NCBI GenBank assembly: GCA_964034945.1
Contig: OZ035962.1
Location: 22,973,530 to 23,037,529, forward strand
Direction of reading: 5' to 3'
Length of the DNA: 64,000 nucleotides
Source: Chrysopilus asiliformis
Lineage: Eukaryota; Arthropoda; Insecta; Diptera; Rhagionidae
A program made the position numbers and the translations under genes. Position 1 is the stretch's first letter. Each line of letters starts with the position of its first letter. The notes beneath the pieces are model-generated. The model was not told where the DNA came from. It saw only the letters and a list, made by a program, of their open reading frames with translations, and did no database searches. This document shows, in pieces, positions 36,638-64,000 of this stretch.

Positions 36638-39116
36638 CTACGAATTTTGTCTTCGGACTGCGGCGGAGTCCCTTTCCTGTTCGAGACGTTCCAATCGAAC
36701 TTTGTACTCTTCGCTTTGTTTCCGGGACACTTCGAGTTGTCTCTGCAGTTCGTCTAACTGCTTTTTTAGTTCGAAAATCTGTCTCGACGCTTCAATTATA
36801 TCCAAAACGGGTGCCACTGATGTTTCTAAACTTGGAATCTTCGAAGCTCTCGCCATTGGAGTGATTTTCGCCACGGCAGGTACTGGAGTTAGTTTTACCG
36901 CCGACATGTTACTCGTTGTACTCAATTGATTGTTACTGCGGATGGTATTTGCCGTCGTTGTTGCTGTTGCATGCGATAGCATAGAAGTTGCTGGGGGTGA
37001 TTGGCAGTGCATCTCAGAGTCTTCTTCGACGTCGCTGTCTGAACACACTTCGATTATGTTTGGGGGTAAGTCGTCCATTTCAGCCGAGGATCGTTTTCTT
37101 GTCGGTGTGAAAATGTGTTTGATCTGAAATTGAGTTAGCAAAAAAATTAAAATTGGAGAACTTTTTCGCCAAATTTGGAAAGATTGCGTCTGAATTTTTA
37201 TAAAATTCTGTTTCAAATTTTGTAAAAAATTGATTTTTTTTATAAAATTTTAAAGGTTTTAAGAAGATTTTGTAAAATCTTTATTTTTTAGAGAAAATTT
37301 CGACTTTTTGACACTAATTTCTTGATTTAAAAAATCTATTTTTTGAGAATATCTGTGGTTTGCGCCTCGGATAGCGGGAAACATCGCTAAATTCAACTCA
37401 ACCAGAAATACACTTTGAATCTCACGATTAGAGTATATAGTCCCAACGCAGCGGCAATTGCTGCATAATTTATTGAAAATCGGTCCACAAATTATAATTT
37501 TTAGTGTATGGCACGTCTCTGCCACTAAATAGAAAATACTCCTAGTGGCAGATACGTTCCCTAATCCCAAAATACTAGTCGAGTATCGAAAACTCCACAA
37601 AAACTTACATTATTTCGACTACTTGATCCCTCGGCGTTAAGAACAGTGCTTTTATTTCGTGAATAGTCTGTTGGAGAAACCATTGATATGGCTGAGTTAA
37701 AATTTGCTGAAGTTTTTGTAGGTGCATTGTTGGACCTGCAGAAAAGACGTTTGTTTTTTATTAAAAATTGTAAACGTTTTTTAGGGAGTTGTGTTGTAAA
37801 TTACTTTGTATTTGTAATGTTTTTAATCGAGCTCATTGGATCCTTTCCATACATTTGTTTAAACGTGTCAACTGATATTACTTTGATGTTCTGTGGAGAA
37901 AACAAAAAAAAAAGTAGTTTTTAAAATTAGTTTTACCAAATTTCTACATTATGATGTGAATAAGCGACCGTAAGAAAAAATACGCCCTAGGTGGGGGCCC
38001 TTATGCTAGAAACAAGTCTCAATGTTTCATCAATTATGTTGTAAAAGTAAATATACAAAAGCATAGAAGAAAATTTTGATCGTGTTCTAAAGTCACGTTC
38101 TAAAATACTCATCTAAAATCTACAACCGGCTCGTGGCGATTTTGGCACCTCTCTAGGGCGGCGCCCACCCCCTACCCCCGGCATGAATCGATTATAAGGA
38201 CTTCCACAGAAACAAAAAAAAATACCTTCTCTTTATTAAATTTTTCTTACCTTATTCTGTTTGATTTGGTGGTCTTTGGCACGTATCAGAATGTTCGGCT
38301 TCTTCCCAATTTTCACGTTAATATTTTTCGGTACATTTGCTGTTTTTTGTAGATTGCTGAGTACGCTAGCACCGCTGCTGTTCAATTGCGATGATAAAAC
38401 ACTATTATAATCATTCCTTGATAAATTCGTATTATTCAGGACTAATTTTCCCGCTTCCGAGAGAACTAATTTCCGGCCACTCTGCAGAGCTGATGTTAGC
38501 GGTGTGTTCTCTGAATCTTCAACGGGCAACATTGAAATTCCATGGCTTTTAAGTAATTTTATCGCAGAATCATTTAATGTTGGTTGATCTAAAATTGAAA
38601 TTGTGATTAATTTTTTGATAAATTAAGATTTTCATCAATTTGGCGGCATTTTTACTGTCTTATCTGTGGTATAATAAAGTATTGTATCCATGAAAGATTT
38701 TGCCCTTTTAATTTTGCCTAAAAAACATTTTCCGAGCACTCCTGAGTCGATTGGAGCATTATTACAAAAATGTCTTTCTGTTTGATTTGTTGATACTATG
38801 CACCGTTTTCGAGAAAATAGAAAAAAAGTATTTCATTTGTGTGGGAAAGGGGAGAAAGAGGGGTCCGATTGGATTTGGATGTAAAATCCTATTCTAAACA
38901 CATCCACCCTTAATAAATTTTTCAATATGACGCACCGTTTTCGAGAAAATTGCAAAAAACTGTTCCATTTGTATGCGGGAGGGAGAAGGAATGGTCCAAT
39001 TTTGCCCGTTCAAGAACTTAGCCTTACTATTTACTAGAAAGGAAACTGTACAAATTTTCAAATGTATAGCTCAATCTTTTCGAAAGTTTTTGTGCTCACG
39101 GATGGACGGACGGACG

Positions 39117-39175
<59 letters not shown>

Positions 39176-44460: not shown

Positions 44461-44844
44461 TATATGTCTTTCGTACAGAATTTAGTGCCTATTTTTTATT
44501 TTTTCAAATAATAGGGTGAAATTTCAGACTTGTGTCCCAATGTTCTTTTTAAAATTTTTTAAAAATGGAAAAATTAAAAGTTTTCCGGATAATAAAAAAC
44601 ATTTGGTTTTATAGAAATCACTCAACTTAAATTCGAAAGACTGCTTGTTAATTAATTTAACTTATTGCGGTAAGAAATCTATAGTTGTAAAATTGCCAGA
44701 TTTCTAGTCATAATGCGAGACGGCCAAAATTTTCTTTTAAATTCATATATTCAAGAATTTTTAATTCACCTATTGATAATCCTATAATAGAGGTAGCTAA
44801 ACTGCTTGATTTTATCGTGAAATTTTTTATTTCACGATTGCTAA

Positions 44845-45240
44845 AATAACTGAGATCGGTTAATATAAATAAAAAACTCATGTCTGAGGTAGAGAGACTA
44901 TAATCTAGAGAGTGGACATCAGCACTTAATAGACTGTCCCACTGAGTAGGACATTTTATTAACTCAAATTAGTACAGTGTATTAGGCCAGTTAGCATAGC
45001 TTTTTCTCCAGATTAGAATAATCTGTAAACAATTTTTCAATTTAATTAAACAACTACGACTTTCCAAATATTTTTGTTTTTTTCTTATATTAACCGCCTT
45101 CAGTTATTTTGGCAGTTATTTGTAACAATGAATCAAATTTTTAAAGTTTTCGCGTTCGTTTTTCAGCTTGGCGGCCATTTTTACACGTCACATTGTCCAC
45201 TTTCTATATTATAGGCTCTCTAGTTTGAGGTATATAAAAA
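44845..45240. mobile_element. Fold-back element, shorter copy, at duplication edge
   Basis: Homologous to 57,590-58,010: contains GTAGAGAGACTATAATCTAG, CCCACTGAGTAGGACATTTT and the GGCGGCCATTTTTACACGTC segment. Compared with the other copy it lacks the outer left arm and the distal 180-bp inverted arm. Confidence 0.65.
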
Positions 45241-45486
45241 TTGAATAGTTATAAGCGACATATCCTTGCCACACCACCTTTACTTATTCAGCAAAATTTT
45301 CGGCATTTTTTAAAAGCTTATTTAGCTTGTTTCTTTGTCTGTCAGGGTCAAATCTTGTAATCCAATTCCATTCATTTTTTTGTGATATTTCTTTTTGCAA
45401 TACCTACCTATGTAAATCTCAGTCCTACTAATATACTTCTCATGACAACAATTGCTGAAAAATACACAGGAAATAGCAAAAATCCA

Positions 45487-45492
45487 TTTATT
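45487..45492 (-). terminator. Polyadenylation signal, ANK-TPR gene copy 1
   Basis: AATAAA about 240 nt after the stop codon; conserved in copy 2 at 58,620-58,625. Confidence 0.45.
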
Positions 45493-45733
45493 TTGAATTC
45501 TAGTCAAGTATAATAAAATTATATTTAATTCTATCGAATGGAAAAATTCAACTCTTTTAAAAATGAAATTACTAAAATTCAATGACAAAATCAACATATG
45601 AAAAATTCGATAAAATATAAAATTAAACAAAAACTTAAACAATCTTCAAATTAAAAAGAGAAAAAAAAACTTGTTTTCTGCTGTTTAGCATTAAAATTAA
45701 CAAATAAAAAGTTAAATTCAAACTTATTTCACT

Positions 45734-48700
45734 TTAATTAATCAAATTAAGTAAGTGACGGAAATCCTTATCTGCCTCCAGACCCATTTGGATGAAACTT
45801 TTCCCAAGATTGTTTTTAGTATTTAACACAGCCAATAACATATCCGCTCCAAGTAAATGTGGGTTATTGAAAACTGTGAAATCTCCTTCTATTGCGGAAC
45901 AGAATATTTCGTCGATAGTTTTTAATAAATTCGTAACTGCAGGATTTGTGGATAAATCCTTGGCAATTTTTCCCATGGTATCGGGTTCATTATAAATAGC
46001 GCCGGATTGCAAGAGCAGAAAAGTAATTCTCTCGTTGCCTTTCATCGCCGCGACATGCAATGCCGTTTTACCACCGGAAGAGGTCTTCGAATTCAGTAAT
46101 CTATTAAATTGTTCGGAATTTGTGGCTGTCATCCATTTTATAACACTTTCACAGACATTTAGGTGACCTTGATTAACAGCCAAATGCAATATAGTGTTGC
46201 CTTTTTGAGTTTTTTTCATCACATCCGAATTATGCTTCAATAGCAGGTCAACCATTTCTGATTTTCCAAGATAAGCGGCACGTTGCAACGGCGAAGAGCC
46301 TTCTGTGTCTTCAAATTTTATTGCATTTGAATTGGTGTTAAGGCACTTAAGGACTTCACTCTGGTCGTTATTTTTGATTGCTCCGAAAATACGATTTTTC
46401 AGAGTTATTTCTGCTATATCATCAGAATAACCGTTACTTGATTCGTAATCCATTGGCATAGAACATACAATTTTCCATGAATCCATTGTCGTAACTTTTG
46501 GATGATTACTGCCGTAAATTTCTTTCATTTTCTCATAAATCTCATTGATAATCTTCATTGAATCGGTAAACTTTTCTTGTAGATATTTTACTTGAGCCAT
46601 ACCAAATTTTGTGTCAAGTGTATTACGATGATCTATGCCGAAGGCCACCTTCTGCTTATTGTACATCTTTGTATATTCCTTTAAAGCTTTATCATAACAT
46701 TTTAGGGCGACTAAAGCAATGGTTTTGTTTTTTTGCGTTCGCAGTGTACAAGAATGACTTGGACCCATCAGAATATAACGGCATTTTAGAACAAAATCTA
46801 ATATATCGATTGCGTCAATATTTTTATCCTGCTTAAAATATGTAAATCCAATATGATCCAAAATATCAAGCGTTACTGGATGTGCCCGTCCATATTGGCG
46901 TTCAAATATCTTTAGCAGTTTATTATCGATTTCAAGTGCTTCATCATACCGGTCCATTCGTTCTAGAACTACAGCCAATAGTCTCATTGTGTGAGTAACG
47001 TCTTCGTGGGTTTCAGAATTTAGAACAGTTTTCTGCATTTCAAGAACTTCCTCGAGCACTGTTAAGGATTCTTTCTTCTTGTCCATATCAAGCAGAATCA
47101 GTCCTAAAAAGCATCGCGTTAACAAAACCTGTGGATGCTCATTACCCAAGACTAGTCTTTGTTTCTCATAAATTTCTTCGGTGAGATCGAATGCTTCCCG
47201 GAAATTATGTTTTCTGAAATTATACAAAGCAATCCGTTTTTGTATCTCCAAAGTTTCTGGATTGTTATATCCTAGTATTTCACCATAGTTCTTGACTATC
47301 TTCTCGCAAATTTTAATGGCTTCGTCGTAGTCCTCCCTATTTACACACGCATCCTCCCTAAGACGATCTGTTGTGTCATTGCCAACAAAGTGGTCTATCA
47401 ATTCCTGCAATTTCGTAAAATTGTTTTTAATAGCAGATGCGAAAATCGTATCTCCGGCAGAATTTTTCGCACTTGCGAGCTGAGTTTTAATTTCATGGAA
47501 ATTCCGAACATTTTTCAACTTATTTAAAATCTTGACGTCTTTCTGCTCAATGAAATTAAATAATCTTTCAATCAATTTCAAAAGATCCGCAATATTAGAA
47601 TTGGTCGCCAAATCAATTGGCTTCTTGTGGTTGTTATTCGTGGAATTGTAAATTGCTCCAGAGTTGAGTAATTTTTTTGTTAATTGCAAATTACCCAATT
47701 TAGCCGCCAAATGCAGTGGGGAGTTTCCCTTATTGTCCCGATGATTAACGGGCGCATTGGCATTTATCAAAAGCTCGACGATATTTTCATTTGCCTGTTC
47801 TACAGCATAGTGCAGAACAGTCTGACCCTTGGTATCTTGTGTGCCCACATACGGCGAATTCTCTTTAGCTTTCAATAGATTGGCCACTTGGCTCTCATCA
47901 TTTTTGGATACTGCAGAAAAAAAATTTTGAATTGATACCAATAACTGTGTACCCTCTTGATTAAAAAAGTCCATGGCAAGAACGGGCATTTTCTCGATTT
48001 CAAAATGGGCACCCCGTTCCAGTAGAAACTCACACATTTTCGTCGTCGTATACTTGGCAGCAACATACAGCGGTGTAGCGCCAAGCATATCCGTTGCATT
48101 TATATCACATCCAATACTCAAAAGATAGTCTACGACATCATAATTGGGTCCTTGAGTAGCGAAATGTAACAAACTCTGTTTTGTCCATTCATTATCTACT
48201 AGATCGTTGAAACCACCTTCGACCAAGTATTTTAAAGTGTTGAGACTGTTATATTTAGCGGCAGTTTGTATCGGTTTCAATAGATTCTCATCCCTTAAAT
48301 TCGGATTGGCACCATTTTCCAACAGCCATTTCGCCCCATGCAGAAAATCATTTTGAGCCGCAACATGCAGCGGAGTCATGTTATAAATTCCAGTGACGTT
48401 TATGCCTTTTCTATGTTTAGCGAGAAACTCAATACAATCATAGCTTTCGTAATGAATAGCAACGTGTACTGGGGTTTCGCCACTTTCACTGGTACACCAT
48501 TTTGCGCCCCGCTTGATCAGAAACTCCAAAATGTTGCATGCGTCCTTCGCAGCAGCGATATGTAATGCGGTTAACTTATCCGCCGTTTTTGCATTTACAT
48601 CGGCCCCATGATCGACTAGCACTTTAACCACACTTAAACGCGCTGCTTCCGTCGCTAAAACCAGTGGCGTAACATTTTCGTCTGTTATGGCGTTAACATT

Positions 48701-51700
48701 GCAGCCCTTCGAAATTAATGTTTTTACTATTGAAGCATTCGCAAAAGTTGCAGCAAAATGTAAGAGTGTAGCATTCTCGATCTTAACGTCAACAACATTA
48801 ATGTTTGGATGTTGGAGAAGCATTTCCGTAATAATGATATCTTCTTGCATAATCGAACTAATTATTGGTTGATGGAGGTTTACATCAGCGCCATTGTCGA
48901 GTAGGACTTTCACAATATCGCAACGATGCAACATAATTGCCCTAATTAGTGGTGTAATCTTTCCTTGTTGTGAATTTACATCGCAACCGGCTTTCACGAG
49001 CAATTCAACAATTTTTATATCGGGTTCGATTAATCCACCCAACAATGATTCAAGTGCTGTACTCCCTTCCAATGACTGAAACAAAAGATTTCTGTCACAT
49101 CCTTCTTTCAAATTTGGATTCGCGCCATTGTCAATGAGAAGTTGAACGATTTCGATATTCCCATGAAATATGGCTGCATGCAATGGCCGTCGGTTGTCTA
49201 AAATTGAATTGACTTCGGCTCCTTTTTTAATTAAAAATCGGCAGGTTTCTACCGCTAGGCCAGTTATGGCGGACATAAGCAATTCATTCAACGTTTTAGT
49301 GGCGATGTCGCGTTTTTTAACAAAGAAATACTTGAAGACTTCCATATTATCATTGCGTAAGGCTAGTTCCTCGTAACCAGTGCCAGTTATGCGTATATTA
49401 CGCTTCTTGATAATACCGAGCACATCGAAATTGTTTCTTTTAAATACCATGTGAAGCGGTGTAATATTTTTGTAGTTTTTCTTCTCTATGACTGCACCCG
49501 AATCAAGCAACAATTCAAAAATCCTGGGGTTTTTTAATTCGCTGGCGAAATGCAGTGGTGTCTGCGAGTGTTTATCAACTGAATTGACATCAACTTTCTT
49601 GTATTTTAATAAACATCGGACAATCTCCTCGTTGTCCTTCAACACCGCAACATGAAGTGGTGTTAGGCCTTCAGGGGTCTTACAGCAGGGATCAGCACCG
49701 TTTTCAAGAAGAAACTTAACAATTTCCGTGCGATTTTTCCAGCATGCGGATATCAAAACTGTGTAGTTTGGTTTTTCCATGCGAGCATTTACATCAGCGC
49801 CATGTTTGATTAGGAGTCTTATTAAGTCGCATTTTGAATTTGTGATTGTACAATGGAGTGGGGTCGCGTTGTGTTTTTGTGTGGAGATCATCTAAAATTA
49901 TTTAATTATTTTAATAAAAGTGCTAACTGTAAACTAAAAAATTCAAAAAATACACGAAAAGCTACTAAAATATAAGAAAGACGGAGGCCAATCGTCTATT
50001 TAAAAAAATCCACTTGTGTAGGAGAGGCGGAAATGGGTGGTCCGATTCGATTTTGATGTATGGAACGGTTATGTCAAATCATATTCTAAACACGTTTTAC
50101 CTTTATAATTTTTTCAATACGATTCGTTTTCGAGAAAATTGTAAAAAAACTTTTTCGTTTAAATGGGGAAGGGGGAGGGGAGGGGACAGTATGATCCTAT
50201 TTTACCCGTTCAAGAATTTAGTCTTCCTATTTACGAAAGACGCAACTGGACAAAATTTCAAGTCTCTAGATCAATCCTTTCAAAAGTTATGGTGTTCACG
50301 GACAGACAGACAGACAGACGAAGTCCGATGATTGGTTCAAAGCATTGCAAACGGTATACTAAATGCAAATACTCCTATATGATTCTCATATGGATTTCGT
50401 ACTGATCAGAAATTTTCTATCTGCCCTCTTCTATAGAAGAAGAAAGTAACAATGCCTTCGACTAGCTTTCTAACTTCAGAAATCTTAATCAAGGCGATAA
50501 ATTGATAAGGTGGCGACATTACCCTGACAAATAGTGATGTGTCAGTTCCACAAAATAAAATTGTATTAAAAAAACATAACAAAAGCTATAATTGCCAATC
50601 TGGCAATCATTGGAGACCCGTATGGTGATATTCGTATCAAAATTCGAACAGTTATACCAAAATTCCACTTTGAAGTCAAACTTTCCAATAAGGTTTTTTA
50701 AAATTTATTCCAATCGGATTTTGATGTATGGGAGTTTTATGTAGAATCATGCCCTAAATAACTTTTGTTCTTGGATTTTTTTGATAAGATGCACCGTTTT
50801 TGAGATATTCACAAAAAACGATTTCGATCGTATGGGGGGTACCCCCCTAATCTTCCATTTTTGCCCATTAACGAACTTAGCCTCGCATTTTACGAAAAAC
50901 GAATCTGCGCAAAATTTCAAGTCTCTAGCTCAATCCGTGCGCCCGCAATCCGCCCAACAGACTGACAGACGGACGGACATGCAAAAATCAATTTTTTTTA
51001 TCATTCTAAACACACTGATGTAATTCATTTTTATGTGTGATGACGGAATCTTGGCGTTACAAACGGTAAAGCAAAGTTAATATACCCTTTGGTTTCACCA
51101 TACGAGTATAAAAAATGGTCCGGGGTCCCCGGTTTTGGTAATACCGGTATTGCAAACCCTAAGCTTGTCTTTAAGAATGGGAGCATTGGTCAATTTTTTG
51201 TTTAAAAATCTTGTTGGAGGTCTCAATAGCTCGTCCTTAACAAAAACTTACCTCCCTTTCGGGTAGTGACAAGAAATAGTTTGATATGTACACTGCCGGT
51301 CAAAAAAACTTGACCGATGATAAAAAAAAACCAATTTTTCGACTTTTCACTCATGTTTCATGTATTGTAAATGTTTTAATTCGACAATTTCTGAAAGAAT
51401 GTACATAACTGAAGCTTATTCAACATTTTGAAATGATTATTCCATGAACATGATGAACAGGTGTCGCATATAAAAATGATCTATACATATTTCCGTATTT
51501 TTAGTTATTAAACGCTTATTACACATGAACGGTCATACTCGTGATAATAACAAGGCATCAAATGATGAAAAATTGTCGTTGGCGATTGTTGACAGTACAT
51601 AAACAATGATGCGTGATCGGGCGCGCTCGGCCGACTTGGCCGCGTTTCCTCGAGCCGAGGCGATTGCAGCCGAGAAAAGCCGATAATAATCGAATATCGA

Positions 51701-54700
51701 TCAATTCAAAATTGAAAATGTCTTTTCTCTTATCATTCACCTTGAATGTATATAAAAAACCTTAACTTGCACATACAATGGGAGTGAAAAATCGAAAAAT
51801 TGGTTTTTTTTATCATCGGTCAAGTTTTTTTGACCGGCAGTGTAGTTACTTCTAAAAAATGTCTTACCTTGGCACCATTCTGCAGCAAAAACTCAACAAC
51901 ATCGTATTGCCCTTCAAAGCACGCCGCATGAATTGCAGTCCATCCTTCGTCATTTGATCCATTCACATCGACGCCCAACTTTATTAAGAACTGCACGAAA
52001 TCAAGTAGCCCCAATTCAGCGGATAAATTCAAATATATGGAGCCGTTAGCGTAACGCTTACCGTCCATTAGAGGCTCATATTTCATCAGTAATTCGAATA
52101 TTTTTAAATTCTTTGATTGTATTGATACGACAACAGGCCGATTTTTAAGTCCATCACTTAGCCACGTGCAATCCGTATTGATATTTAGAATGCATTCTAC
52201 TGTTTCGTAAGATCCACTGATTACCGCATAGTGTAAGCATGTCCGCTCCAAATAATCAGACTCTGTAATTAAATTCAATGATTTTGATTTCGATTTGGAA
52301 TTTCGGACAATAAAGTCGATAGCGTGATGATTTCCTGTCGATGCAGCCAAATGGAATACGTTTTGCTTACTGCAGTTTTTCCTCAAGCTCAGATCGAACT
52401 TTGGACATTCCTTCATAAAATACATTAAGACTCCTCGATCATGATTCTTGGCTGCTATTTCCACCAGAGAGTAATTATCCAAATCTCTTGCATAATAATC
52501 TACCAGCGAAAAGTCAATTGTGCTTTTTATGTCGACTAGTGGCGATTCTTCAGTTATTTTAAATAATTTCAAATTCATTTCAATAATTTTCCCTTCATTG
52601 AAGAATCGCTCGATGATTTTTGACACACCGGGAATTGCGGCAATGCTAGCTGATTGTTGTTCAACTGTTAATTTCTTGTCATAGTGTAGAACATAATTAA
52701 TCGAATTCGTTATAACCGACAGTTCAATGTTGAACGGCTGTATCTCGAAAACAAAGTTGCCATGTGCGATGTGGCAGTGGAGTTCCTTTCCAGTCAACAG
52801 TGGGAAATCGTCGTCTAGGAAATAGGCGTTATCACACAATTTCTTATCATTTAGCGATAGAATATCCAGCAGCAACATCTCAATAGCCGCAATCATTTGT
52901 CGATTGTTTGAATTTTGTATGAAATTCTTTATTGTCTTGAGATTACAATCCAGGAGCTTCGAGTCTTGCAAAATTACTTTCAGCAATTTAATTTTATCAA
53001 GCGGAATATCTGCGTTTCTAATTGTCCTTTTCTTCGAATTTGGTTCTGGTACAAACTTTTCTTTTAATTGTTTAAGTCCATTTATGTTCTTGGAGTTCTC
53101 AGTTACAAACAACAGCATTTGGTGGAGGTACATCGAAAATTGGTGATCATTAGTGAAGTCAGACTCCAATGATCGCATCCATTTAACAGCCGTTTTTACA
53201 AGTAATTCAAAAATATATTGAGGATTATTAGCCAATTGTAAAACTAATGGTAACTGTATATTGTCTTCCTCGTTTTCTGGCGCAATAGACTCTATTTGTG
53301 TCTTCAGTTTATCTAAATAATCAAATATGGTTCCATTTTGATATTTTTTACGAGACATTTCGTCCTCAAAGAATATTTTTGAAATAAGATTCTTCAGCTT
53401 CACATTAAACTGAATAAAAGTCTTATTTTTGTCTTTCTGTTCGATTTCGATTAGTTTGAAGATTTGCTTATACGAATCTATGTATGATGCAGTCTTAACG
53501 TTTGAAGATGATTCTTTATCTATTAAAGAAATCAAATCCTTCAATTTATCCACTGCATTCGTTGATAATGAAGATGGAAGCATATTTTTTGGAATCACGT
53601 CAATTTGACCCCAATTGAAAATTTCACAGATCTTGAAAAATTCATCAAAACTTTTACAATCAAAAATATCGGCTATTAATTTATCGAGAAGTTTGTTTTT
53701 GCGTTGATAAAAGAGGTCTACAATAAAATTGCGTAATGATAGTAATTCTTCTTTGATTTGTTTGAGACCCTCGTTGTAAGACTGATTCGTTTCTTCTACT
53801 TGAATGCGACGAGTTAGGGCGAATTTCATCAACAATGACCTTCGAAGATTTGATATTTTTTTTCTTGTGTCATCAGAGAATGTTGACGCGAGAATACCGC
53901 TTAAATCAGTGGAAAGATTCGGTATATTTTCATCAATAACTAGAACGCATCTTTCGATTACGAGAAATTCATATTCCTTGCTAGCAATTTTGCTGCTCAT
54001 TACCAAATCAATAAAATACAAAACATTATTCAGTGTATAGAAATCACGAAGTGCTGAATAGTCAGCGTACAAACCCTTAAAAGCATCACTGTCCGCGGAT
54101 AGCTTCTCAATGACTACTTGGCGAGTGAGATTTCCTTCAATTTCATGTAGATTAATGTCAGCTGCTTGTAAATCGCCGACAATAACTCGCAAGTGTTGGG
54201 CAAACTCCTCCAAATATTTCAAAAGTTTATCGTTTGTTATAATCGCTCGATAATAGAGGCCATCATTCTGTTTGTCGTTTAAATGTTTTACAAACACCAC
54301 CAAACAGAAGTGAATCTCTTCCCATGGCAATCGATCGTATGTTGATTTCAATTCTCGTTTCAATGCGTAAATATTCGCAATTAACGATCGCAGATTGAAA
54401 ATAAACTCCTGATCCACAGTTTTATCGGAACCGCCAGAGTTTTTAACCAAATTTTCAATGATTTCGATAACGAAATTCGCTCGTTTTTTAACATCATCCA
54501 GGCTGACTTCTGGCCGTGATGCTGCACTAAAGTTCTCCGAGTCAAAACGAATATTCAACAATTTATTCTCGATGAAAATTTTCATATCTTCACTTAAATC
54601 GATATTACACAAATGGAGTTTTCTATACGCTTTTGATAGCACTTCATCTACGATTTCATTGTTGATTTCTCCGGGCCACTTGTCGATCAAAATGGTCAGC

Positions 54701-55164
54701 AATTCTACGTCATTCGAACGAATGGCGTAATAAAAAGCATTCTTTCCTTCTTCGTCCTCATCGAAGGCCCCGATCGGACTTTTGCCGATATCGACATTTA
54801 AACTGTTTACAAATTTATTGCTTTTGTCTAGCAAATGCTTTAAAATATCGTTGGCACCGTATTTGCTGGACAATATTATCAAATTGGTTTGGCGCATTGG
54901 ACAATTTTTGTGCTCCATAAAATCCTTCAAGACGTCCTTTTTCTCGATTTTATTCAGTTGTATCAGGAGTTGCCCCAGCGATTTTACGTTCTCGAGTTTT
55001 TTCGCTTGTACGGATTTTGCCAAATCCCCAAGGACCTCATGGTAGCATTTTAACGGTCCAACTGTGTTGTAGTATTTTTCGATTTCAGTTTTTGATGAAA
55101 ATCCAAGTTTAAATAGTTTGTCGTTGAATGTGAAATTCTGACTGAAGACATCGGACGACAGCAT
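45734..55164 (-). CDS. Giant ankyrin-TPR-ankyrin protein, copy 1
   Basis: Two exons, 51,868-55,164 and 45,734-49,891, join in phase 0 across GT/AG (AAG|GTAAGA ... TTTTAG|ATG) and restore one ankyrin repeat across the junction (NGAK then the next repeat): 2,484 aa. The start at 55,164 has CAAAATG context. Exon 1: two N-terminal ankyrin-like repeats (about 85-170), a long mainly helical region with a LPWEEIHFCL motif and no recognised catalytic motif (about 200-920), then about five ankyrin repeats. Exon 2: about 20 more ankyrin repeats (DVNAKTADKLTALHIAA-type), a tetratricopeptide region of kinesin-light-chain type (about exon residues 865-1,165, e.g. YEKQRLVLGNEHPQVL), and four C-terminal ankyrin repeats. 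No signal peptide or membrane segment. Likely an intracellular scaffold. Function unknown. A near-identical tandem copy lies upstream. Confidence 0.9.
49892..51867 (-). other. Intron of ANK-TPR gene copy 1
   Basis: A 1,976-bp intron with consensus ends. It contains two R1 repeat modules (49,990-50,440 with a short RGAC array at 50,297-50,321; 50,700-51,080) and a Tc1/mariner-like MITE at 51,291-51,842. Its 49,892-50,820 part matches 63,072-64,000 with one difference seen. Confidence 0.85.
51291..51842 (+). mobile_element. Tc1/mariner-type MITE with 61-bp inverted ends
   Basis: CACTGCCGGTCAAAAAAACT at 51,291 and its inverse at 51,842 begin near-perfect inverted repeats of about 61-62 bp (one A-run length difference and one substitution), flanked by TA (51,289-51,290 and 51,843-51,844). 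The interior, about 430 bp, is non-coding with a GC-rich patch near 51,620-51,670. Near-identity of the ends implies recent insertion. Confidence 0.9.
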
Positions 55165-55232
55165 TTTGGAATGTTTGCTGGAAATTTTAAAAAGATGCTA
55201 AAGCTATTAAAATGAAGATGTGTTAAAACTGT

Positions 55233-55536
55233 ATCAGAGACTGTCCATAAAAGACGTCACGCATCTACGAAGGCAACCAGAATACAGTGCCGCAGTACAT
55301 TATTGATGTTTCTTTTTTTACAAGCCTTACGATTTTTTGATTGTTTTCAATTTTTTTTGTTCTGTTTTTGAATATTTTTCAAAACTAGTTGTCGTCTTTC
55401 AAGTGAGCTAAACATGTAAAACCTTAAAATGCTTCGTCCCAGATCGGAATTTAGAAATTACATACAAAAAATCACGGAGTGATTAGTTCGACAAGATACA
55501 AAATAGCGTAACGTATTTTATGGGCTGGTCATCGAG
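55233..55536 (+). mobile_element. MITE immediately upstream of ANK-TPR copy 1
   Basis: GACTGTCCATAAAAGACGTCACGC on the left and the inverse of GACCAGCCCATAAAATACGTTACGC on the right delimit about 304 bp, starting only 69 bp upstream of the start codon. Same family as 41,005-41,198. Confidence 0.6.
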
Positions 55537-56079
55537 GACTCGTTAATACCTTTTTGAATGTTTAATAGTGGCTTATGAGACTTCTTTTAAAACAGTTCGA
55601 TGCTGTTGATCAATTTTAGTTGCCACGAATTCTTCTGTGTATGGCAAGGAACTGAAATCATGGAAAACCACTATTTTAAATAAAACTTACATGTTTTGAT
55701 ACAGAATTATGAAAAGGGAAATAGAAAACTTGGCAAAATTCCCATTTTTAAAAGCTTTTATTTAGCTTGCTTTTTCGTCTGTCTATCAGGGTCAAATCTT
55801 GTAATCTCATTTTTCAATTGACTTGAAATTCTCAACACATACGTAATTGTGAGGACAATGCAATGTGTGTGTATACATGAATGAGAAAAAAAACCGAATA
55901 GCGGCAAGCATCAGACGCCATTTTATCCAAATCGAACTAACGAAGTACCCATGGTACAGTGTCTTAAATGAAAGGGCTTGGAAAAACAATAAAGCCGAAT
56001 ATCGATCTCGAGGGAAAACAAAATGACTGACGCATCAGGCATTTTTTCAGTAGGCAACCATCGTATGAGGCCTTAAATG

Positions 56080-56165
56080 AATAAGCGTGACGCAAGACAG
56101 ACGTTATTTTGCATTTTTAGTCATGACTAAAAATGCAAAATACCGTGTTTTGCATCACGCTTATT
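56080..56165. repeat. Near-perfect palindrome with perfect 38-bp core
   Basis: The core at 56,105-56,142 is TATTTTGCATTTTTAGTCA followed by its exact reverse complement with no loop. Imperfect pairing continues outward to AATAAGCGTGA (56,080-56,090) and TCACGCTTATT (56,155-56,165). Confidence 0.85.
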
Positions 56166-56400
56166 AAGGATAAAAAAAATAAATAAAAACAAAAAAAAAA
56201 TAAAAACAAAAAAAAAATAAAAACAAAAAAAAATAAAAACAAAAAAAAATAAAAAAAAAGCTTTTATTGAAAAAAAAAATCTGAAAAGAAAAAAAAAGTT
56301 CTACATCAGAAATAAAAGCATAAAACAAAAAAAAATTATCTCGCTTTGTTTTCGCCACTGATCTGCCCATTATTCCGCAAATAAAATTTTCAAAAAAGTG
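56165..56400 (+). repeat. (AAATAAAAACAAAAAAA)n minisatellite and A/T hairpin family
   Basis: About six A-rich units at 56,172-56,258, followed by CATCAGAAATAAAAGCATAAAAC and TATCTCGCTTTG related to 42,419-42,484. Confidence 0.7.
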
Positions 56401-57490
56401 GCTTTTTTAAAAATTCTGATTTCGATTTATTTTGCTTCAGAAATTCGCATAAACATTAAAGTAATGAAAATTGTTATTAAAATAGTTAACCTATAGGCAT
56501 TATGCTTTTTTCACGTTTTTTTAATAAGTAAAATAAATTTGTTATAGAATTTTTATGAAAACTAAAACTTTTTTACACAAACTTCTACGTCTTTTTTTTT
56601 TAATAAGCAGAACAACATATTTTTGAAAATCGTTTTGCTTTTCAGTTTTTTTTCTGAGATTTGACAAAAAAAAAGCAATTGCAAAGTAGAAATCGCTAAA
56701 AACCGAGATTCGAATCCGCCATTTTAGTGACTTTCGTTTAACTAATATGGTAGAAAAATTAGATTAGGTTTAGAAAACTCAACGTGCCCCCAGGGCAGAG
56801 TTTCACCAGGAACCCATGTGACCGGGACCACTTGTGATGTTTTTGGCTTAAAAGAATTAAAGGGATAAAACATCTGGAATGGTTTGCAGCTGGACTTCTA
56901 GATGGGAGATTTTTTTTTTGTTTTTCGTTTGTTTGCATGTTCAAGCAAGACTTTGAAGTTAAAATCTTTGAAAAAAAAACAGAAAACCATTGCAGAAATC
57001 TTTTCCGCCAAACGAACCCGTTAGATTGAATTTAGCTCAATTTTCAATTCATGCAAAACTTGAAGCCCAGATTTATTTTATTGAGCCTAAAAATCGGCTC
57101 GTAAATGGAATCTAATTTTATTGTACAATTCTTTATCAAAGGTTTTTTCTTGTATTGAAAATGGATAAATTTGATTTCCAAGAGAAGTTTTACTTTGTAC
57201 GGCAATCGAAAACTTAAAAAACTATGTGCTATTAAAAAATCAACTTTTTTTTACCTTATTGTGTTATCAAAGTATTCACGAACATAAAAATAATCTGCAC
57301 TAGAATAAAACTAAACCTCTCGTTGAGACGACACGATTGCAAATGGAGACGCTGGGGATACAAACAGGAATTTAGATTTGTTCAGAAATTTTTTTTTGAA
57401 TTGAAAATTTCCCAATAAGCTAATCTGCGTCAACGACTCAACTAGAGTGCGTGTATGATCTAGAGAATTGTTTATATCAGGTAGAAAGCC
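56400..57490. other. AT-rich intergenic sequence, nothing recognised
   Basis: No supported gene, RNA or element. Confidence 0.45.
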
Positions 57491-58195
57491 TGTAATCTAA
57501 AGAGTGGACATTGGGACGTGTAAAAATGGCCGCCAAGCTTAAAAACGAACGCGAAAAACTCTAAAAATTTCATTCATTGCTACAATTAATTGCCAAAATA
57601 ACTGAAATCGGTTAATATAAGTAAAAAGCTCATGTCTGAGGTAGAGAGACTATAATCTAGAGAGTGGACATCAGCACTTAATAGACTGTCCCACTGAGTA
57701 GGACATTTTATTAACTCAAATTAGTACAGTGTATTAGGCCAGTTAGCATAGCTTTATCTCCAGATTAGAATAATCTGTAAACAATTTTTAAATTTATTAA
57801 AACAACTACGACTTTCCTAATATTTTTGATGCCTCAGATATGAGTTTTTTACTTATATTAACCGCCTTCAGTTATTTTGGCAGTTATTTGTAACAATGAA
57901 TCAAATTTTTAAAGTTTTCACGTTCGTTTTTCAGCTTGGCGGCCATTTTTACACGTCACATTGTCCACTTTCTATATTATAGGCTCTCTAGTTTGAGGTA
58001 TATAAAAATTGAAGTTTTAATAAATTTAAAAATTGTTTACAGACTGTTCTAATCTGAGGAAAAAAAGCTGTTCTACCTGGTCTAATAGTGTTCTAATTGG
58101 AGTCAATAGACTGTCCTATTCAGTAGGACAATCTACTTATTATGTGCTGTGCTGATGTCTACTACCTAGATTATTATCTCTAGTGAAACCCTTTC
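57490..58195. mobile_element. Fold-back element with interleaved inverted arms
   Basis: Four arms occur in the order A-B-A'-B'. A (about 57,491-57,640) is inverse to A' (57,829-57,985); they share GTGTAAAAATGGCCGCCAAGCTT. B (about 57,640-57,805) is inverse to B' (58,010-58,192); they share AGTAGGACA and ACAATTTTTAAATTTATTAAAAC. Copy 1 at 44,845-45,240 has only B and A'. No coding capacity. Class unknown. Confidence 0.7.
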
Positions 58196-58619
58196 ATTTC
58201 CACGCTAGGGAATTACAAGGAGCGACGCGATCTATTGTATATATGTTTGTCGCAAATTTAAAAACGATTTTTAGTGGCCGACTCTGAAAGGAGAAACATT
58301 TGGGCGATAAATTTCGAACCTAAATAAAAAACCACAAACATTTTGTAACAAATAAATGACTCTAGAGAAAACCGGTTACAGCGACAGATCCTTGCCACAC
58401 CACCTTTACTTATTCCGCAAAATTTTCGGCATTTTTTAAAAGCTTAGCTTGTTTCTTTGTCTGTCAGGGTCAAATCTTGTAATCTAATTTTGACCCAATT
58501 CCATTCATTTTTTTGTGATATTTCTTTTTGCAATACCTACCTATGTAAATCTCAGTCCTACTAATATACTTCTCATGACAACAATTGCTGAAAAATACAC
58601 ACGAAATAGCAAAAATCCA

Positions 58620-58625
58620 TTTATT
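58620..58625 (-). terminator. Polyadenylation signal, ANK-TPR gene copy 2
   Basis: AATAAA about 235 nt after the stop codon, at the position equivalent to that in copy 1. Confidence 0.45.
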
Positions 58626-58859
58626 TTGAATTCTAGTCAAGTATAATAAAATTATATTTAATTCTATCGAATGCAAAAATTCAACTCTTTTAAAAATGAA
58701 ATTATTAAAATTCAATGACAAAATCAACATATGAAAAATTCGATAAAATATAAAATTAAACAAAAACTTAAACAATCTTCAAATTAAAAAGAGAAAAAAA
58801 AACTGGTTTTGTGCTGTTTAGCATTAAAATTAACAAATACAATTCAAACTTATTTCACT

Positions 58860-61800
58860 TTAATTAATCAAATTAAGTAAGTGACGGAAATCCTTACCTG
58901 CCTCCAGACCCATTCGGATGAAACCTTTCCCAAGATTGTTTTTAGTATTTGACACAGCCAATAACATATCCGTTCCCAGGCAACGTAGGTTATTCAAAAC
59001 TGTGAAAAAATCCCCTTCTGTTGCGGAACAGAATATTTCATCGATAGTACTTAATGAAATCGTAATTATAGGATTTATCGATAAATCCTTGGCAGTTTTT
59101 CCCATGGTATCGGGTTCATTATAAATAGCGCCGGATTGCAAGAGCAGAAAAGTAATTATGTGGTTGCCTTGCATCGCCGCGACATGCAATGCCGTTTTAC
59201 CACCGGAAGAGGTCTTCGAATTCAGCAATCTACTTAATTGTTCGGAATTTGTGGCTGTCATCCATTTTATAACACTTTCACAGACATTTAGGTGACCTTG
59301 ATTAACAGCCAAATGCAATATAGTGTTGCCTTTTTGAGTTTTTTTCATCACATCCGAATTATGCTTCAATAGCAGGTCAACAATTTCTGATTTTCCAAGA
59401 TAAGCGGCAAGTTGCAACGGCGAAGAGCCTTCTGTGTCTTCAAATTTTATTGCATTTGAATTGGTGTTAAGGCACTTAAGGACTTCACTCTGGTCGTTAT
59501 TTTTGATGGCTTCGAAAAGACAATGCTTTAGGGGTTCCTCATTTTCCTTGTTGGCTTTGGATTTTTCACCCATAATCGTCTCTATATCAACAAAAAACTT
59601 CTCATAATGACTATTAGTAAATCCATAGTTCATTGCCATAGAACACCCAACTTTGAACCTATCCAACACGTTAACTTTTGGATGATTGCTACCGTAGACC
59701 GCTTTTATTTTCTCATAAATCTCATCAATAATCTGCATCGCTTCCGTTACATTACACTGTTGAGCCTTTAAAACAGCCATGCAAACCCTTGTGTCAAGTG
59801 TAGCGTGATGATCATCCCCCATGACAGCCTTTTGCTTATTATAAATCTTTGCATATTCATTGAATGCATCATCAAATCGTTTCAATTCAATTAAAGCATA
59901 GATCTTGGCATTCTGTGTTCGCAGTGTTGACGAGTGATTCGGACCCATTTGAATATGACGGTATTTTAATACAAAATCGAATACATCGATTGATTCATAT
60001 TTTTTTTGTTTAGAATAGATAACTCCAATATGATCCCAGATATCAAGCGTTATTGGATGTTCCCGTCCATATTGACGTTCAAATATCTTTAGCAGTTTAT
60101 TATCAATTTCAAGTGCTTCATCATAACGGTCCATTCGTTCTAGAACTACAGCCAATTGTCTCATTGTACAGGTAAAATCTTCGTGGGTTTCAGAATTTAG
60201 AACAGTTTTCTGCATTTCAAGAACTTCCTCGAGCACTGTTAAGGATTCTTTCTTCTTGTCCATATCAAGCAGAATCTGTCCTAAAAAGCATCGCGTTAAC
60301 AAAACCTGTGGATGCTCATTACCCAAGACTAGTCTTTGTTTCTCATAAATTTCTTCGGTGAGATCGAATGCTTCCCGGAAATTATGTTTTCTGAAATTAT
60401 ACAAAGCAATCCGTTTTTGTATCTCCAAAGTTTCTGGATTGTTATATCCTAGTACTTCACCACAGTTTTTGACTATCTTCTCGCAAATTTTAATGGCTTC
60501 GTCGTAGTCCTCCCTATTTACACACGCATCCTCCCTAAGACGATCTGTTGTGTCATTGCCAACAAAGTGGTCTATCAATTCCTGCAATTTCGTAAAATTG
60601 TTTTTAATAGCAGATGCGAAAATCGTATCTCCGGCAGAATTTTTCGCACTTGCGAGCTGAGTTTTAATTTCATGGAAATTCCGAACATTTTTCAACTTAT
60701 TTAAAATCTTGACGTCTTTCTGCTCAATGAAATTAAATAATCTTTCAATCAATTTCAAAAGATCCGCAATATTAGAATTGGTCGTCAAATCAATTGGCTT
60801 CTTGTGGTTGTTATTCGTGGAATTGTAAATTGCTCCAGAGTTGAGTAATTTTTTTGTCAATTGCAAGCTACCCAATTTAGCCGCCAAATGCAGTGGGGAG
60901 TTTCCCTCATTGTCCCGATGATTAACGGGCGCATTGGCATTTATCAAAAGCTCGACGATATTTTCATTTGCCTGTTCTACAGCATAGTGCAGAACAGTCT
61001 GACCCTTGGTATCTTGTGTGCCCACATACGGCGAATTCTCTTTAGCTTTCAATAGATTAGCCACTTGGTTCTCATCATTTTTGCACACTGCAGAGAACAA
61101 ATTTTGAATTGATACCATAAACTGTCTACCCTCTGGATTAAAAAAGTCCATGACAAGAAGAAGGGGCATTTTTTCGATTTCAAAATGGGCACCCCGTTCC
61201 AGTAGAAACTCACACATTTTCGTCGTCGTACTCATGGCAGCAACAATTAGCGGTGTAGCGCCAAGCATATCCGTTGCATTTATATCACATCCAATACTCA
61301 AAAGATAGTCGACGACATCATAATTGGGTCCTTGAGTAGCGAAATGTAACAAACTCTGTTTTGTCCATTCATCATCTACTAGATCGTTGAAACCACCTTC
61401 GACCAAGTATTTTAAAGTATTGAGACTGTTATATTTAGCGGCAGTTTGTATCGGTTTCAATAGATTCTCATCCCTTAAATTCGGATTAGCACCATTTTCC
61501 AACAGCGATTTCGCCCCATGCAGAAAATCATTTTGAGCCGCAAAATGCAGCGGAGTCATGTTAGAAATTCTAGCGACGTTTATGCCTTTTCTATGTTTAG
61601 CGAGAAACTCAATACAATCATAGCTTTCGTAATGAATAGCAACGTGTATTGGGGTTTCGCCACTTCCCCTGGTACACAATTTTGCGCCCCGTTTGATCAG
61701 AAGTTCCAAAATCTTGCACTCATCCATCATTGCAGCGATATGTAATGCGGTTAACTTATCCGCCGTTTTTGCATTTACATCGGCCCCGTTATCGACTAGC

Positions 61801-63071
61801 ACTTCAACCACACTAAAATGCGTTGCTTCCGTCGTTAAAACCAGTGGCGTAACATTTTTGTCTGTTATAGCGTTAACATTGCAGCCCTTCGAAATTAATG
61901 TTTTTACAATTGAAGGATTCGCAAAAAGTGCAGCAAAATGTAAGAGTGTAGCATTCTCGATCTTAACGTCAACAACATTAATGTTTGGATGTTGGAGAAG
62001 CATTTCCGTAATAATGATATCTTCTTGCATAATCGAACTAATTATTGGTTGATGGAGGTTTACATCAGCGCCATTGTCGAGTAGGACTTTCACAATATCG
62101 CAACGATGCAACATAATTGCCCTAATTAGTGGAGTAATCTTTCCTTGTTGTGAATTTACATCGCAACCGGCTTTCACGAGCAATTCAACGATTTTTATAT
62201 CGGGTTCGATTAATCCATCCAACAACGATTCAAGTGCTGTGCTCGCTTCCAATGACTGAAACGAAAGATTTGTGTCACATCCTTCTTTCAAATTTGGATT
62301 CGCGCCATTGTCAATGAGAAGTTGAACGATTTCCATATTCCCATGAAATATGGCTGCATGCAACGGAAGTCGGTTGTCAACAATGAAATTGACTTGTGCT
62401 CCTTTTTTAATTAAAAATCGGCAGGTTTCTACCGCTAGGCCAGTTATGGCGGACATAAGCAATTCATTCAACGTTTTAGTGGCGATGTCGCGTTTTTTAA
62501 CAAAGAAATACTTGAAGACTTCCATATTATCATTGCGTAAGGCTAGTTCCTCGTAACCAGTGCCAGTTATGCGTATATTACGCTTCTTGATAATACCGAG
62601 CACATCGAAGTTGTTTCTTTTAAATACCATGTGAAGCGGTGTAATATTTTTGTAGTTTTTCTTCTCAATGACTGCACCCGAATCAAGCAACAATTCAAAA
62701 ATCCTGGGGTTTTTTAATTCGCTGGCGAAATGCAGTGGCGTCTGCGAGTGTTTATCAACTGAATTGACATCAACTTTCTTGTATTTTAATAAACATCGGA
62801 CAATCTCCTCGTTGTCCTTCAACACCGCAACATGAAGTGGTGTTAGGCCTTCAGGGGTCTTACAGCAGGGATCAGCACCGTTTTCAAGAAGAAACTTAAC
62901 AATTTCCGTGCGATTTTTCCAGCATGCGGATATCAAAACTGTGTAGTTTGGTTTTTCCATGCGAGCATTTACATCAGCGCCATGTTTGATTAGGAGTCTT
63001 ATTAAGTCGCATTTTGAATTTGTGATTGTACAATGGAGTGGGGTCGCGTTGTGTTTTTGTGTGGAGATCAT
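58860..63071 (-). CDS. Giant ankyrin-TPR-ankyrin protein, copy 2 (3' exon; gene runs off the window)
   Basis: This is the 3' coding exon, 1,403 codons plus stop, homologous to the 1,385-codon exon at 45,734-49,891, with the same acceptor (TTTTAG before ATGATC at 63,071). The ATG at 63,071 is exon-internal in the spliced form; the 5' exon should lie beyond 64,000. Same layout: about 20 ankyrin repeats, kinesin-light-chain-like TPRs, four C-terminal ankyrin repeats. The first roughly 225 residues are identical to copy 1. Replacements cluster in ankyrin repeats at about 225-290 and 385-545. The distal TPR region (plus-strand 59,511-60,040) shares only about half its residues with copy 1 and has an 18-residue longer Lys/Glu-rich linker. 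The frame is intact, so it is probably functional. Confidence 0.88.
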   Translation of the reverse strand: MISTQKHNATPLHCTITNSKCDLIRLLIKHGADVNARMEKPNYTVLISACWKNRTEIVKFLLENGADPCCKTPEGLTPLHVAVLKDNEEIVRCLLKYKKVDVNSVDKHSQTPLHFASELKNPRIFELLLDSGAVIEKKNYKNITPLHMVFKRNNFDVLGIIKKRNIRITGTGYEELALRNDNMEVFKYFFVKKRDIATKTLNELLMSAITGLAVETCRFLIKKGAQVNFIVDNRLPLHAAIFHGNMEIVQLLIDNGANPNLKEGCDTNLSFQSLEASTALESLLDGLIEPDIKIVELLVKAGCDVNSQQGKITPLIRAIMLHRCDIVKVLLDNGADVNLHQPIISSIMQEDIIITEMLLQHPNINVVDVKIENATLLHFAALFANPSIVKTLISKGCNVNAITDKNVTPLVLTTEATHFSVVEVLVDNGADVNAKTADKLTALHIAAMMDECKILELLIKRGAKLCTRGSGETPIHVAIHYESYDCIEFLAKHRKGINVARISNMTPLHFAAQNDFLHGAKSLLENGANPNLRDENLLKPIQTAAKYNSLNTLKYLVEGGFNDLVDDEWTKQSLLHFATQGPNYDVVDYLLSIGCDINATDMLGATPLIVAAMSTTTKMCEFLLERGAHFEIEKMPLLLVMDFFNPEGRQFMVSIQNLFSAVCKNDENQVANLLKAKENSPYVGTQDTKGQTVLHYAVEQANENIVELLINANAPVNHRDNEGNSPLHLAAKLGSLQLTKKLLNSGAIYNSTNNNHKKPIDLTTNSNIADLLKLIERLFNFIEQKDVKILNKLKNVRNFHEIKTQLASAKNSAGDTIFASAIKNNFTKLQELIDHFVGNDTTDRLREDACVNREDYDEAIKICEKIVKNCGEVLGYNNPETLEIQKRIALYNFRKHNFREAFDLTEEIYEKQRLVLGNEHPQVLLTRCFLGQILLDMDKKKESLTVLEEVLEMQKTVLNSETHEDFTCTMRQLAVVLERMDRYDEALEIDNKLLKIFERQYGREHPITLDIWDHIGVIYSKQKKYESIDVFDFVLKYRHIQMGPNHSSTLRTQNAKIYALIELKRFDDAFNEYAKIYNKQKAVMGDDHHATLDTRVCMAVLKAQQCNVTEAMQIIDEIYEKIKAVYGSNHPKVNVLDRFKVGCSMAMNYGFTNSHYEKFFVDIETIMGEKSKANKENEEPLKHCLFEAIKNNDQSEVLKCLNTNSNAIKFEDTEGSSPLQLAAYLGKSEIVDLLLKHNSDVMKKTQKGNTILHLAVNQGHLNVCESVIKWMTATNSEQLSRLLNSKTSSGGKTALHVAAMQGNHIITFLLLQSGAIYNEPDTMGKTAKDLSINPIITISLSTIDEIFCSATEGDFFTVLNNLRCLGTDMLLAVSNTKNNLGKGFIRMGLEAGKDFRHLLNLIN

Positions 63072-64000
63072 CTAAAATTATTTAATTATTTTAATAAAAG
63101 TGCTAACTGTAAACTAAAAAATTCAAAAAATACACGAAAAGCTACTAAAATATAAGAAAGACGGAGGCCAATCGTCTATTTAAAAAAATCCACTTGTGTA
63201 GGAGAGGCGGAAATGGGTGGTCCGATTCGATTTTGATGTATGGAACGGTTATGTCAAATCATATTCTAAACACGTTTTACCTTTATAATTTTTTCAATAC
63301 GATTCGTTTTCGAGAAAATTGTAAAAAAACTTTTTCGTTTAAATGGGGAAGGGGGAGGGGAGGGGACAGTATGATCCTATTTTACCCGTTCAAGAATTTA
63401 GTCTTCCTATTTACGAAAGACGCAACTGGACAAAATTTCAAGTCTCTAGATCAATCCTTTCAAAAGTTATGGTGTTCACGGACAGACAGACAGACAGACG
63501 AAGTCCGATGATTGGTTCAAAGCATTGCAAACGGTATACTAAATGCAAATACTCCTATATGATTCTCATATGGATTTCGTACTGATCAGAAATTTTCTAT
63601 CTGCCCTCTTCTATAGAAGAAGAAAGTAACAATGCCTTCGACTAGCTTTCTAACTTCAGAAATCTTAATCAAGGCGATAAATTGATAAGGTGGCGACATT
63701 ACCCTGACAAATAGTGATGTGTCAGTTCCACAAAATAAAATTGTATTAAAAAAACATAACAAAAGCTATAATTGCCAATCTGGCAATCATTGGAGACCCG
63801 TATGGTAATATTCGTATCAAAATTCGAACAGTTATACCAAAATTCCACTTTGAAGTCAAACTTTCCAATAAGGTTTTTTAAAATTTATTCCAATCGGATT
63901 TTGATGTATGGGAGTTTTATGTAGAATCATGCCCTAAATAACTTTTGTTCTTGGATTTTTTTGATAAGATGCACCGTTTTTGAGATATTCACAAAAAACG
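63072..64000 (-). other. Intron of ANK-TPR gene copy 2 (partial)
   Basis: Matches 49,892-50,820 base for base apart from one substitution that I can see (near 63,807 versus 50,627). Contains the same R1 repeat and RGAC array (63,477-63,501). The window ends before the position where copy 1 carries its MITE. Confidence 0.9.

Follow-up and report, generated by a model that had tools for sequence, protein, structure and literature searches.

We analyzed a window of 64,000 nucleotides from the fly Chrysopilus asiliformis (Rhagionidae; GenBank assembly GCA_964034945.1, contig OZ035962.1, positions 22,973,530 to 23,037,529 of the forward strand) in which two genes for giant ankyrin-tetratricopeptide repeat (TPR) proteins lie head to tail. 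Open frames were found at 45734-49891, 51820-55164 and 58860-63071, all three on the minus strand. Copy 1 is a two-exon gene whose exons splice in frame to encode 2,484 aa, and the missing first exon of copy 2 was located past the end of the window. The tandem pair with one complete member, as reported in a preliminary description of this DNA, is therefore confirmed. The parts of the two genes are as follows.

51868..55164, minus strand: copy 1 exon 1, 1,099 codons, encoding the conserved N-terminal helical module and the first ankyrin repeats
49892..51867, minus strand: copy 1 intron, GTAAGA...TTTTAG (donor AAG/GTAAGA, acceptor TTTTAG/ATG)
45734..49891, minus strand: copy 1 exon 2, 1,385 aa, encoding the ankyrin array, the TPR block, the C-terminal ankyrins and the stop
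46442..47359, minus strand: copy 1 TPR block, approximate limits from the Pfam scan and our own reading
58860..63071, minus strand: copy 2 exon 2, 1,403 aa
65149-68445 (window numbering extended, past the window end), minus strand: copy 2 exon 1, complete, 1,099 codons

Ankyrin repeats are encoded by both exons, and Pfam placed TPR_12/TPR_10 at approximately residues 850-1030 of exon 2. Using a purpose-built repeat profile with a score threshold of ≥2 bits, 20 ankyrin repeats were counted in exon 2, 17 upstream of the TPR block and 3 downstream, so the earlier picture of an ankyrin array with an inner TPR block behind a helical N-terminus holds. The proteins are not repeat-only, as had also been stated: the N-terminal ~890 residues form a conserved helical module mostly without recognized repeats. 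Pfam gave this module no name except for weak ankyrin matches at approximately residues 77-167, and scans of the N-terminus against NCBIfam and PADLOC returned nothing below E 0.1.

The N-terminus aligned with the Wolbachia phage WO protein gwv_1093 at 29.5% identity, with 99% of 885 aa covered (E 4e-79), and three phage WO records matched the module among the 50,697 records of a phage collection. The gwv_1093 coding sequence specifies 2,474 aa, and its annotation puts ankyrins and TPRs together on a single chain; a PRANC-ankyrin gene adjoins it and an hsp20 gene is close by. Judged by this homology, the window pair belongs to the gwv_1093 family, and the architecture that had been called uncharacterized is that of gwv_1093 and its arthropod homologues. 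Homology searches yielded 55 database proteins (2 + 53), every one of which (55/55) gave a phmmer match to the module. Named sources among them were ants, bees, a lacewing, a gall fly, a mealybug, a weevil, brine shrimp, an isopod and spiders, with four Wolbachia entries and one Symbiodolus plasmid on the symbiont side; ankyrin and TPR repeats in one chain were also seen in the Wolbachia protein P0009 and the lacewing protein P0006. A third search, with family member L050 as query, gave five proteins, of which three were new and were kept outside the 55; this search added a butterfly, a pseudoscorpion and a parasitoid wasp to the named sources.

Wolbachia entries P0009 and P0013 are on 1.55 Mb contigs, and P0011 and P0019 come from metagenome-assembled genomes with longest contigs of 11.8 and 54 kb, their origin being less certain. 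A scan of GTDB gave one relative; its contig bears the name of Wolbachia from the mite Fragariocoptes setiger, and close by is a frame which we read as Hsp20-like. A scan of IMG/VR gave no relative. In P0019, P0013 (both Wolbachia) and P0057 (the Symbiodolus plasmid) the same N-terminal module stands mid-protein, behind other domains. Precomputed Pfam assignments there include PF02338 in P0019, presumably the OTU protease, and PF05729 (NACHT) in P0057; P0013 and P0019 share a stretch that by our reading looks like NACHT/NB-ARC.

Because of the intron, the 114.8 Mb contig and the neighboring Dbp10-type helicase gene, the window pair are nuclear homologues and not phage genes. They are also not alone. 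When the N-terminal 890 residues were searched against the whole genome (429 Mb), 44 match rows on four contigs were obtained, of which 30 became loci; counts of this type are lower bounds. At least 25 related loci are present, on four contigs. The tandem, diverging, repeat-rich family proposed earlier is accordingly larger than was noted, and the suggested look for further copies beyond the window found them genome-wide. The tree set comprised L010-L034 (25 loci) and left out L035-L039, which are fragments or second matches of counted genes, as well as the 14 match rows that had not become loci. The six nearest loci, the window pair among them, have an exon-1 frame of 1,105-1,125 aa; 18 of the other 19 have single open frames of 1,587-2,427 aa and the remaining one has a frame of 1,089 aa. 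No internal stops were found in the matched part of any locus row (30/30). L050, with a 2,081-aa frame and examined in full, carries ankyrins and gave no TPR match; the build therefore varies within the family. In a tree with 32 further rows (L009 and 31 of the 55 database proteins), the 25 host loci grouped as a single clade with a Shimodaira-Hasegawa-like approximate likelihood ratio (SH-aLRT) support of 100. Four diverged members (L038, L036/L039, L026 and L025), one of them with a 671-aa frame only, were observed within 28 kb at G000:C1:20715954-20743985.

Exchange with symbionts was assessed on an unrooted tree of 28 rows, 6 bacterial or phage and 22 arthropod or host. Forcing the six bacterial or phage rows into one clade was rejected by the approximately unbiased test (p-AU 3.8e-7). 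The 9 host rows used in this tree fell on one side of a branch (100/100), and 12 of its 25 inner branches are open, leaving the fine order unsure. Within the module, identity to phage WO was 94% for a gall-fly protein, 84% for a bee and 63% for brine shrimp, two bees were mutually 60% identical, and the window module was 28-30% identical to gwv_1093. Because of the split of the bacterial and phage rows together with this identity pattern (the fly at 94% to phage, the bees at 60% to each other), lateral transfer is needed, and at the level of the family, as distinct from the window's own clade, these comparisons establish transfer between bacteria and arthropods. The gall-fly protein P0014 (Eurosta solidaginis) is chromosomal, lying on a 397 Mb contig, and its 94% identity to gwv_1093 in the module suggests recent transfer. 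Lateral transfer of gwv_1093 with arthropods has already been argued by Bordenstein and Bordenstein 2016 (PMC5062602), whose text places the gene in the eukaryotic association module of phage WOVitA1 and, by parsimony, leans toward the arthropod-to-phage direction with the reverse left possible.

Two motifs are strongly conserved in the module alignment, LR[ND]xxxH and LRNxLAH, which in gwv_1093 read LRNSLSH and LRNHLAH. R-x4-6-H is a HEPN-type motif. The arginine and histidine are kept at motif 1 in 53/55, at motif 2 in 53/55 and at both in 52/55 relatives; one of the three relatives without both motifs has no second segment. In copy 1 the motifs and the segments that were scanned around them are located as follows.

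53635..54003, minus strand: segment scanned as HEPN-like domain 1, residues 388-510
53827..53844, minus strand: motif 1, residues 441-446; R-x4-M in copy 1, R-x4-H in 53/55 database relatives
52615..53001, minus strand: segment scanned as HEPN-like domain 2, residues 722-850
52762..52779, minus strand: motif 2, residues 796-801; H-x4-H in copy 1, R-x4-H in 53/55 database relatives

Slices of these segments (17 per motif segment) and of two control segments (17 and 16 slices, mostly from the same proteins) were compared with 24,736 Pfam models, with matches accepted to E 1. HepT-like ribonuclease matched 5/17 slices of segment 1 (best 8.2e-4), and any other family was seen in at most two slices. 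With segment 2, 11 families were obtained, among them HEPN_Apea (0.0022), DUF4209 (0.022) and HEPN_RiboL-PSP (0.027) in one slice each; DUF4209 overlaps the C6orf70 HEPN family according to the text of PMC3710099. The control segments gave 13 and 21 families; the names HEPN and HepT do not occur among them, and no family recurs in a second slice. Among three whole proteins scanned, only lacewing P0006 matched HepT-like, at 2.2e-4 and 21.4 bits against a cut-off of 23.5.

Several results weigh against a HEPN assignment. No HEPN match reached the curated Pfam cut-off in either slices or whole proteins, and P0006, whose HepT-like match was already known, supplies one of the 17 segment-1 slices; segment 1 also has single chance matches, for example DUF1374 at 0.002. 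Since the segment-2 E-values (0.0022-0.027) are individually no better than a control chance match (0.0021), it is the concordance of names by itself that makes the case for HEPN in segment 2. HEPN matches were also absent from scans of the gwv_1093 and mite Wolbachia N-termini (E limit 1), of P0004, P0005 and the window module (E limit 10) and of P0009 and P0057 (E limit 0.01). The 20 matches and the 1 match that two profile searches drew from solved structures include no HEPN. The fold searches, run with AlphaFold models of whole modules (885 and 802 residues) and not at domain level, speak neither for nor against HEPN: Foldseek gave no match at E up to 0.001, and VIA-align mostly covered residues 1-336 with unrelated helical proteins. 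Weighing the sub-threshold support on one side and the contrary results on the other, we consider the HEPN identity of the N-terminal segments rather likely. Membership of the alpha-latrotoxins, suggested by solved-structure matches and database names, was dropped: residues 1-890 have no match among latrotoxin chains up to E 10, and on comparison of the sequences the latrotoxin matches fall in or beside the ankyrin part.

Both motifs are broken in the window. Copies 1 and 2 carry RRSLLM at motif 1 and HCHIAH at motif 2, the motif-1 histidine having been replaced by methionine and the motif-2 arginine by histidine, and the 86% relative at C3:24.46 Mb carries RRSLLM and HRHIAH. Across the 30 host locus rows, the last residue of motif 1 is H in 12 and K in 11, and motif 2 keeps R and H in 24; both motifs are intact in 12, of which L036 and L039 represent one gene. 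Motif loss leading to the window trio appears to have been stepwise.

Measured against the 28.3 Mb relative, the ratio of nonsynonymous to synonymous substitution rates (dN/dS) for copy 1 was 0.27 in exon 1 and 0.32 in exon 2; with the 24.46 Mb relative the values were 0.49 and 0.36, respectively, and for the window copies against related loci the range was 0.27-0.50. Values above 1 occurred in three low-difference comparisons, namely exon 1 of copy 1 versus copy 2 (1.03, 5 differences), the C-terminal ankyrins of the pair (1.60) and the copy 1 TPR cassette described below versus the 24.46 Mb paralogue (1.23). Differences between paralogues lie mainly at variable repeat positions, with a conserved core and a variable surface when counted by repeat position. 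Of the earlier claim that the copies diverge at repeat surfaces, the location of the differences stands and diversifying selection does not; positive selection at ankyrin surfaces was rejected, dN/dS being below 1 in most regions and comparisons. These ratios establish that the window copies are under purifying selection despite their lost motifs. Because the motif residues are lost yet purifying selection persists, the copies are probably non-catalytic paralogues, and constraint without motifs fits a binding or regulatory role.

Our best explanation, held with moderate confidence, is that the window genes are a gwv_1093-family pair in which the intact form of the protein would be a gated two-HEPN module, and the window copies motif-broken, non-catalytic and restraining. 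The gwv_1093 family is that of a giant ankyrin-TPR protein that has passed between the chromosomes of arthropods and their symbionts, Wolbachia and its phage included. In the intact protein, a two-HEPN module (residues ~390-510 and 720-850) may bring its two RNxxxH motifs into one composite RNA-cutting site within a single chain, and the C-terminal ankyrin-TPR-ankyrin arm would bind a ligand and so hold and gate the module. The window pair would have kept the binding arm and the module fold and have no catalysis; its products might bind the same ligand, or pair with and restrain motif-intact paralogues of the same genome or, alternatively, restrain symbiont relatives. RNase activity, gating and the regulatory role are what we infer for this family; the immune role, which the preliminary description had itself offered as inference, stays at that level. 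A bolder form of the explanation, which we put forward as unlikely, is that the N-terminus is a single-chain HEPN pair acting as a ligand-gated RNase, with RNase L logic and a cis-paired site as in Cas13, circulating between arthropods and symbionts, and that the window subfamily are domesticated dead restrainers of active paralogues or of symbiont-delivered relatives.

The main rival is a pure binding scaffold, with a non-enzymatic N-terminus in which RNxxxH would be structural and the whole protein a long adaptor in host cells and symbiont effectors. HEPN scores that are sub-threshold or absent would be expected of such a protein, ankyrin and TPR repeats are generic binders, and the window family is still constrained after motif loss. 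Set against this are the retention of R and H at both motifs in 52/55 relatives from arthropods and bacteria and the appearance of HEPN names in each of the motif segments but not in the two control segments, and we regard a scaffold as possible but on the unlikely side. Under a toxin-antidote scheme, whether selfish or defensive, motif-intact members would be toxic RNases of symbiont origin and the motif-dead nuclear copies antidotes to a symbiont-delivered or paralogous toxin. Although one genome does hold motif-dead and motif-intact members, phage WO and Wolbachia are carriers and the dead copies are constrained, no motif-intact member adjoins the pair among the loci found, and this scheme seems to us improbable. 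That the copies are decaying transferred DNA, functionless and kept by chance, would agree with the text of PMC13320244, where Wolbachia ankyrin transfers are frequent in ants and many are expected to be non-functional and lost; with zero internal stops in the matched part of 30 locus rows, open frames of ≥1,587 aa in 18/19 loci beyond the window-type group and dN/dS well below 1 between older paralogues, it is very improbable.

The least probable alternative concerns the assembly. The duplicated unit and the exchanged part of copy 1 are as follows.

45254..57643, no strand: duplicated unit 1; unit 2 is 58380 to 70926 in extended numbering
46390..46980, minus strand: exchanged cassette, last TPRs of copy 1, approximate limits; core ~30% nucleotide divergence from copy 2

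The units align from 45254 and 58380 onward, with an extra interrupted match leftward (44837-45245 with 57589-58013), and inside exon 2 the offset between copies is 13,126-13,180 bases. Exon 1 differs between the copies at 5/3,297 bases and a run of 1,067 bases around the intron end is identical. Divergence in exon 2 is mostly 0-10% per 200 bases and rises to ~30% at 46400-46800. In the cassette block (exon 2 residues 1001-1180), copy 1 has a dS of 0.029 to the C3:24.46 Mb paralogue, 1.45 Mb distant, compared with 0.12-0.45 over the remaining exon 2 of copy 1 and with 0.74 for copy 2 in the same block; over residues 1001-1150 the copy 1 protein is 90-96% identical to that relative. By this pattern both copies are mosaics, of the sort expected after gene conversion or after an ectopic exchange that moved a TPR cassette. 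The tandem pair is real, and because of the divergent block in exon 2 and the match of the copy 1 cassette to a third locus, copy 2 is unlikely to be a simple haplotype duplicate; for the near-identical 5' part, an assembly error keeps a small probability. An artefact in which copy 2 is the other haplotype set in tandem, the possibility that the preliminary description had held out against its own reading, would explain the few exon 1 differences and the identical run, and is most improbable in view of exon 2 differences that reach 10% per 200 bases and, in one sharply bounded block, ~30%, the position of the 86% relative ~1.4 Mb away and the presence of both copies on a single contig of 114.8 Mb. 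Near the junction of the duplicated units, at 57482-57990, an inverted repeat of 160 bases (88%) was observed. A dispersed repeat of ~250-330 bases, 75-83% alike and in both orientations, occurs at 4852-5248, 26353-26665, 38879-39207, 50003-50319 and 63183-63499, near simple-repeat runs translating to QTDR or similar; there is one copy of it per gene-copy intron.

The neighboring genes are nuclear.

32774-35538, minus strand: Dbp10-type DEAD-box helicase gene, split into exons (DEAD 35179-35538, DBP10CT 32774-33526); we take DDX54 to be the name of the Dbp10 type
41296-43346, minus strand: ankyrin-encoding frames of a separate gene, from the domain scan; by its look a candidate relative of what we take to be GA-binding protein beta

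With respect to known systems, gwv_1093 as described in the text of PMC5062602 resembles copy 1 in a module homologous over its full length, in its ankyrin and TPR repeats and in its size (2,474 versus 2,484 aa), whereas the window genes are nuclear, intron-bearing, tandem and motif-degenerate and belong to a separate clade of at least 25 loci. Relatives of the pair share two RNxxxH sites and sub-threshold profile similarity with RNases of the HEPN superfamily (HepT-like PF01934, ApeA-like and RiboL-PSP); in the window copies the motif residues are gone, and the curated cut-off is reached nowhere. RNase L offers a functional resemblance only, in a proposed ankyrin sensor on a HEPN-class (KEN) RNase; the proteins here differ in their TPR block and in having no kinase-like domain (E limits of 0.001 for the exons and 10 for the module). 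The domain order of RNase L is reversed relative to that of the window protein. DZIP3, Cxorf38 and RNase L are described by Anantharaman 2013 (PMC3710099) as HEPN families of animals that carry fused ankyrins or TPRs; its passages on ankyrins, TPRs and insects name no two-HEPN protein of such a build, and the words Wolbachia and arthropod are absent from the text available. Symbiont-type ankyrins amplified in insect chromosomes are likewise described from Nasonia, as its CLANK and PRANC ankyrin genes (PMC6161386), and from ants, as ankyrin transfers from Wolbachia across 163 genomes (PMC13320244). CLANKs differ in that a C-terminal PRANC-type end is their marker, and the available text of both papers mentions no N-terminal module like that of the window.

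The word HEPN does not occur in the main text of PMC5062602, which in its available parts assigns no biochemical activity to gwv_1093, and the available text of PMC9997750 holds nothing on a gwv_1093-type family. Within the open-license literature, as distinct from subscription papers and preprints, we found no description of the gwv_1093 N-terminus as HEPN-like and no paper on TPR-ANK with Wolbachia. Titles and the beginnings of abstracts retrieved for HEPN and Wolbachia, for HEPN, ankyrin and arthropod, and for Wolbachia ankyrin and kinesin light chain gave nothing on this family. The two-HEPN reading of the gwv_1093 N-terminus is thus new here, lateral transfer being already published.

Proteins through which Wolbachia influences its hosts can be sought in the eukaryotic association module of phage WO. 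Should the HEPN reading fail, the expansion and gene conversion would still stand documented, in a family shared with symbionts. If the N-terminus is indeed a two-HEPN RNase, the activity of the gwv_1093 N-terminus would become directly testable, as would the question of why one animal genome keeps a large family with both motif-intact and stepwise motif-losing members, and the family would represent an RNase-type defense or attack module linking arthropod chromosomes and symbiont phage.

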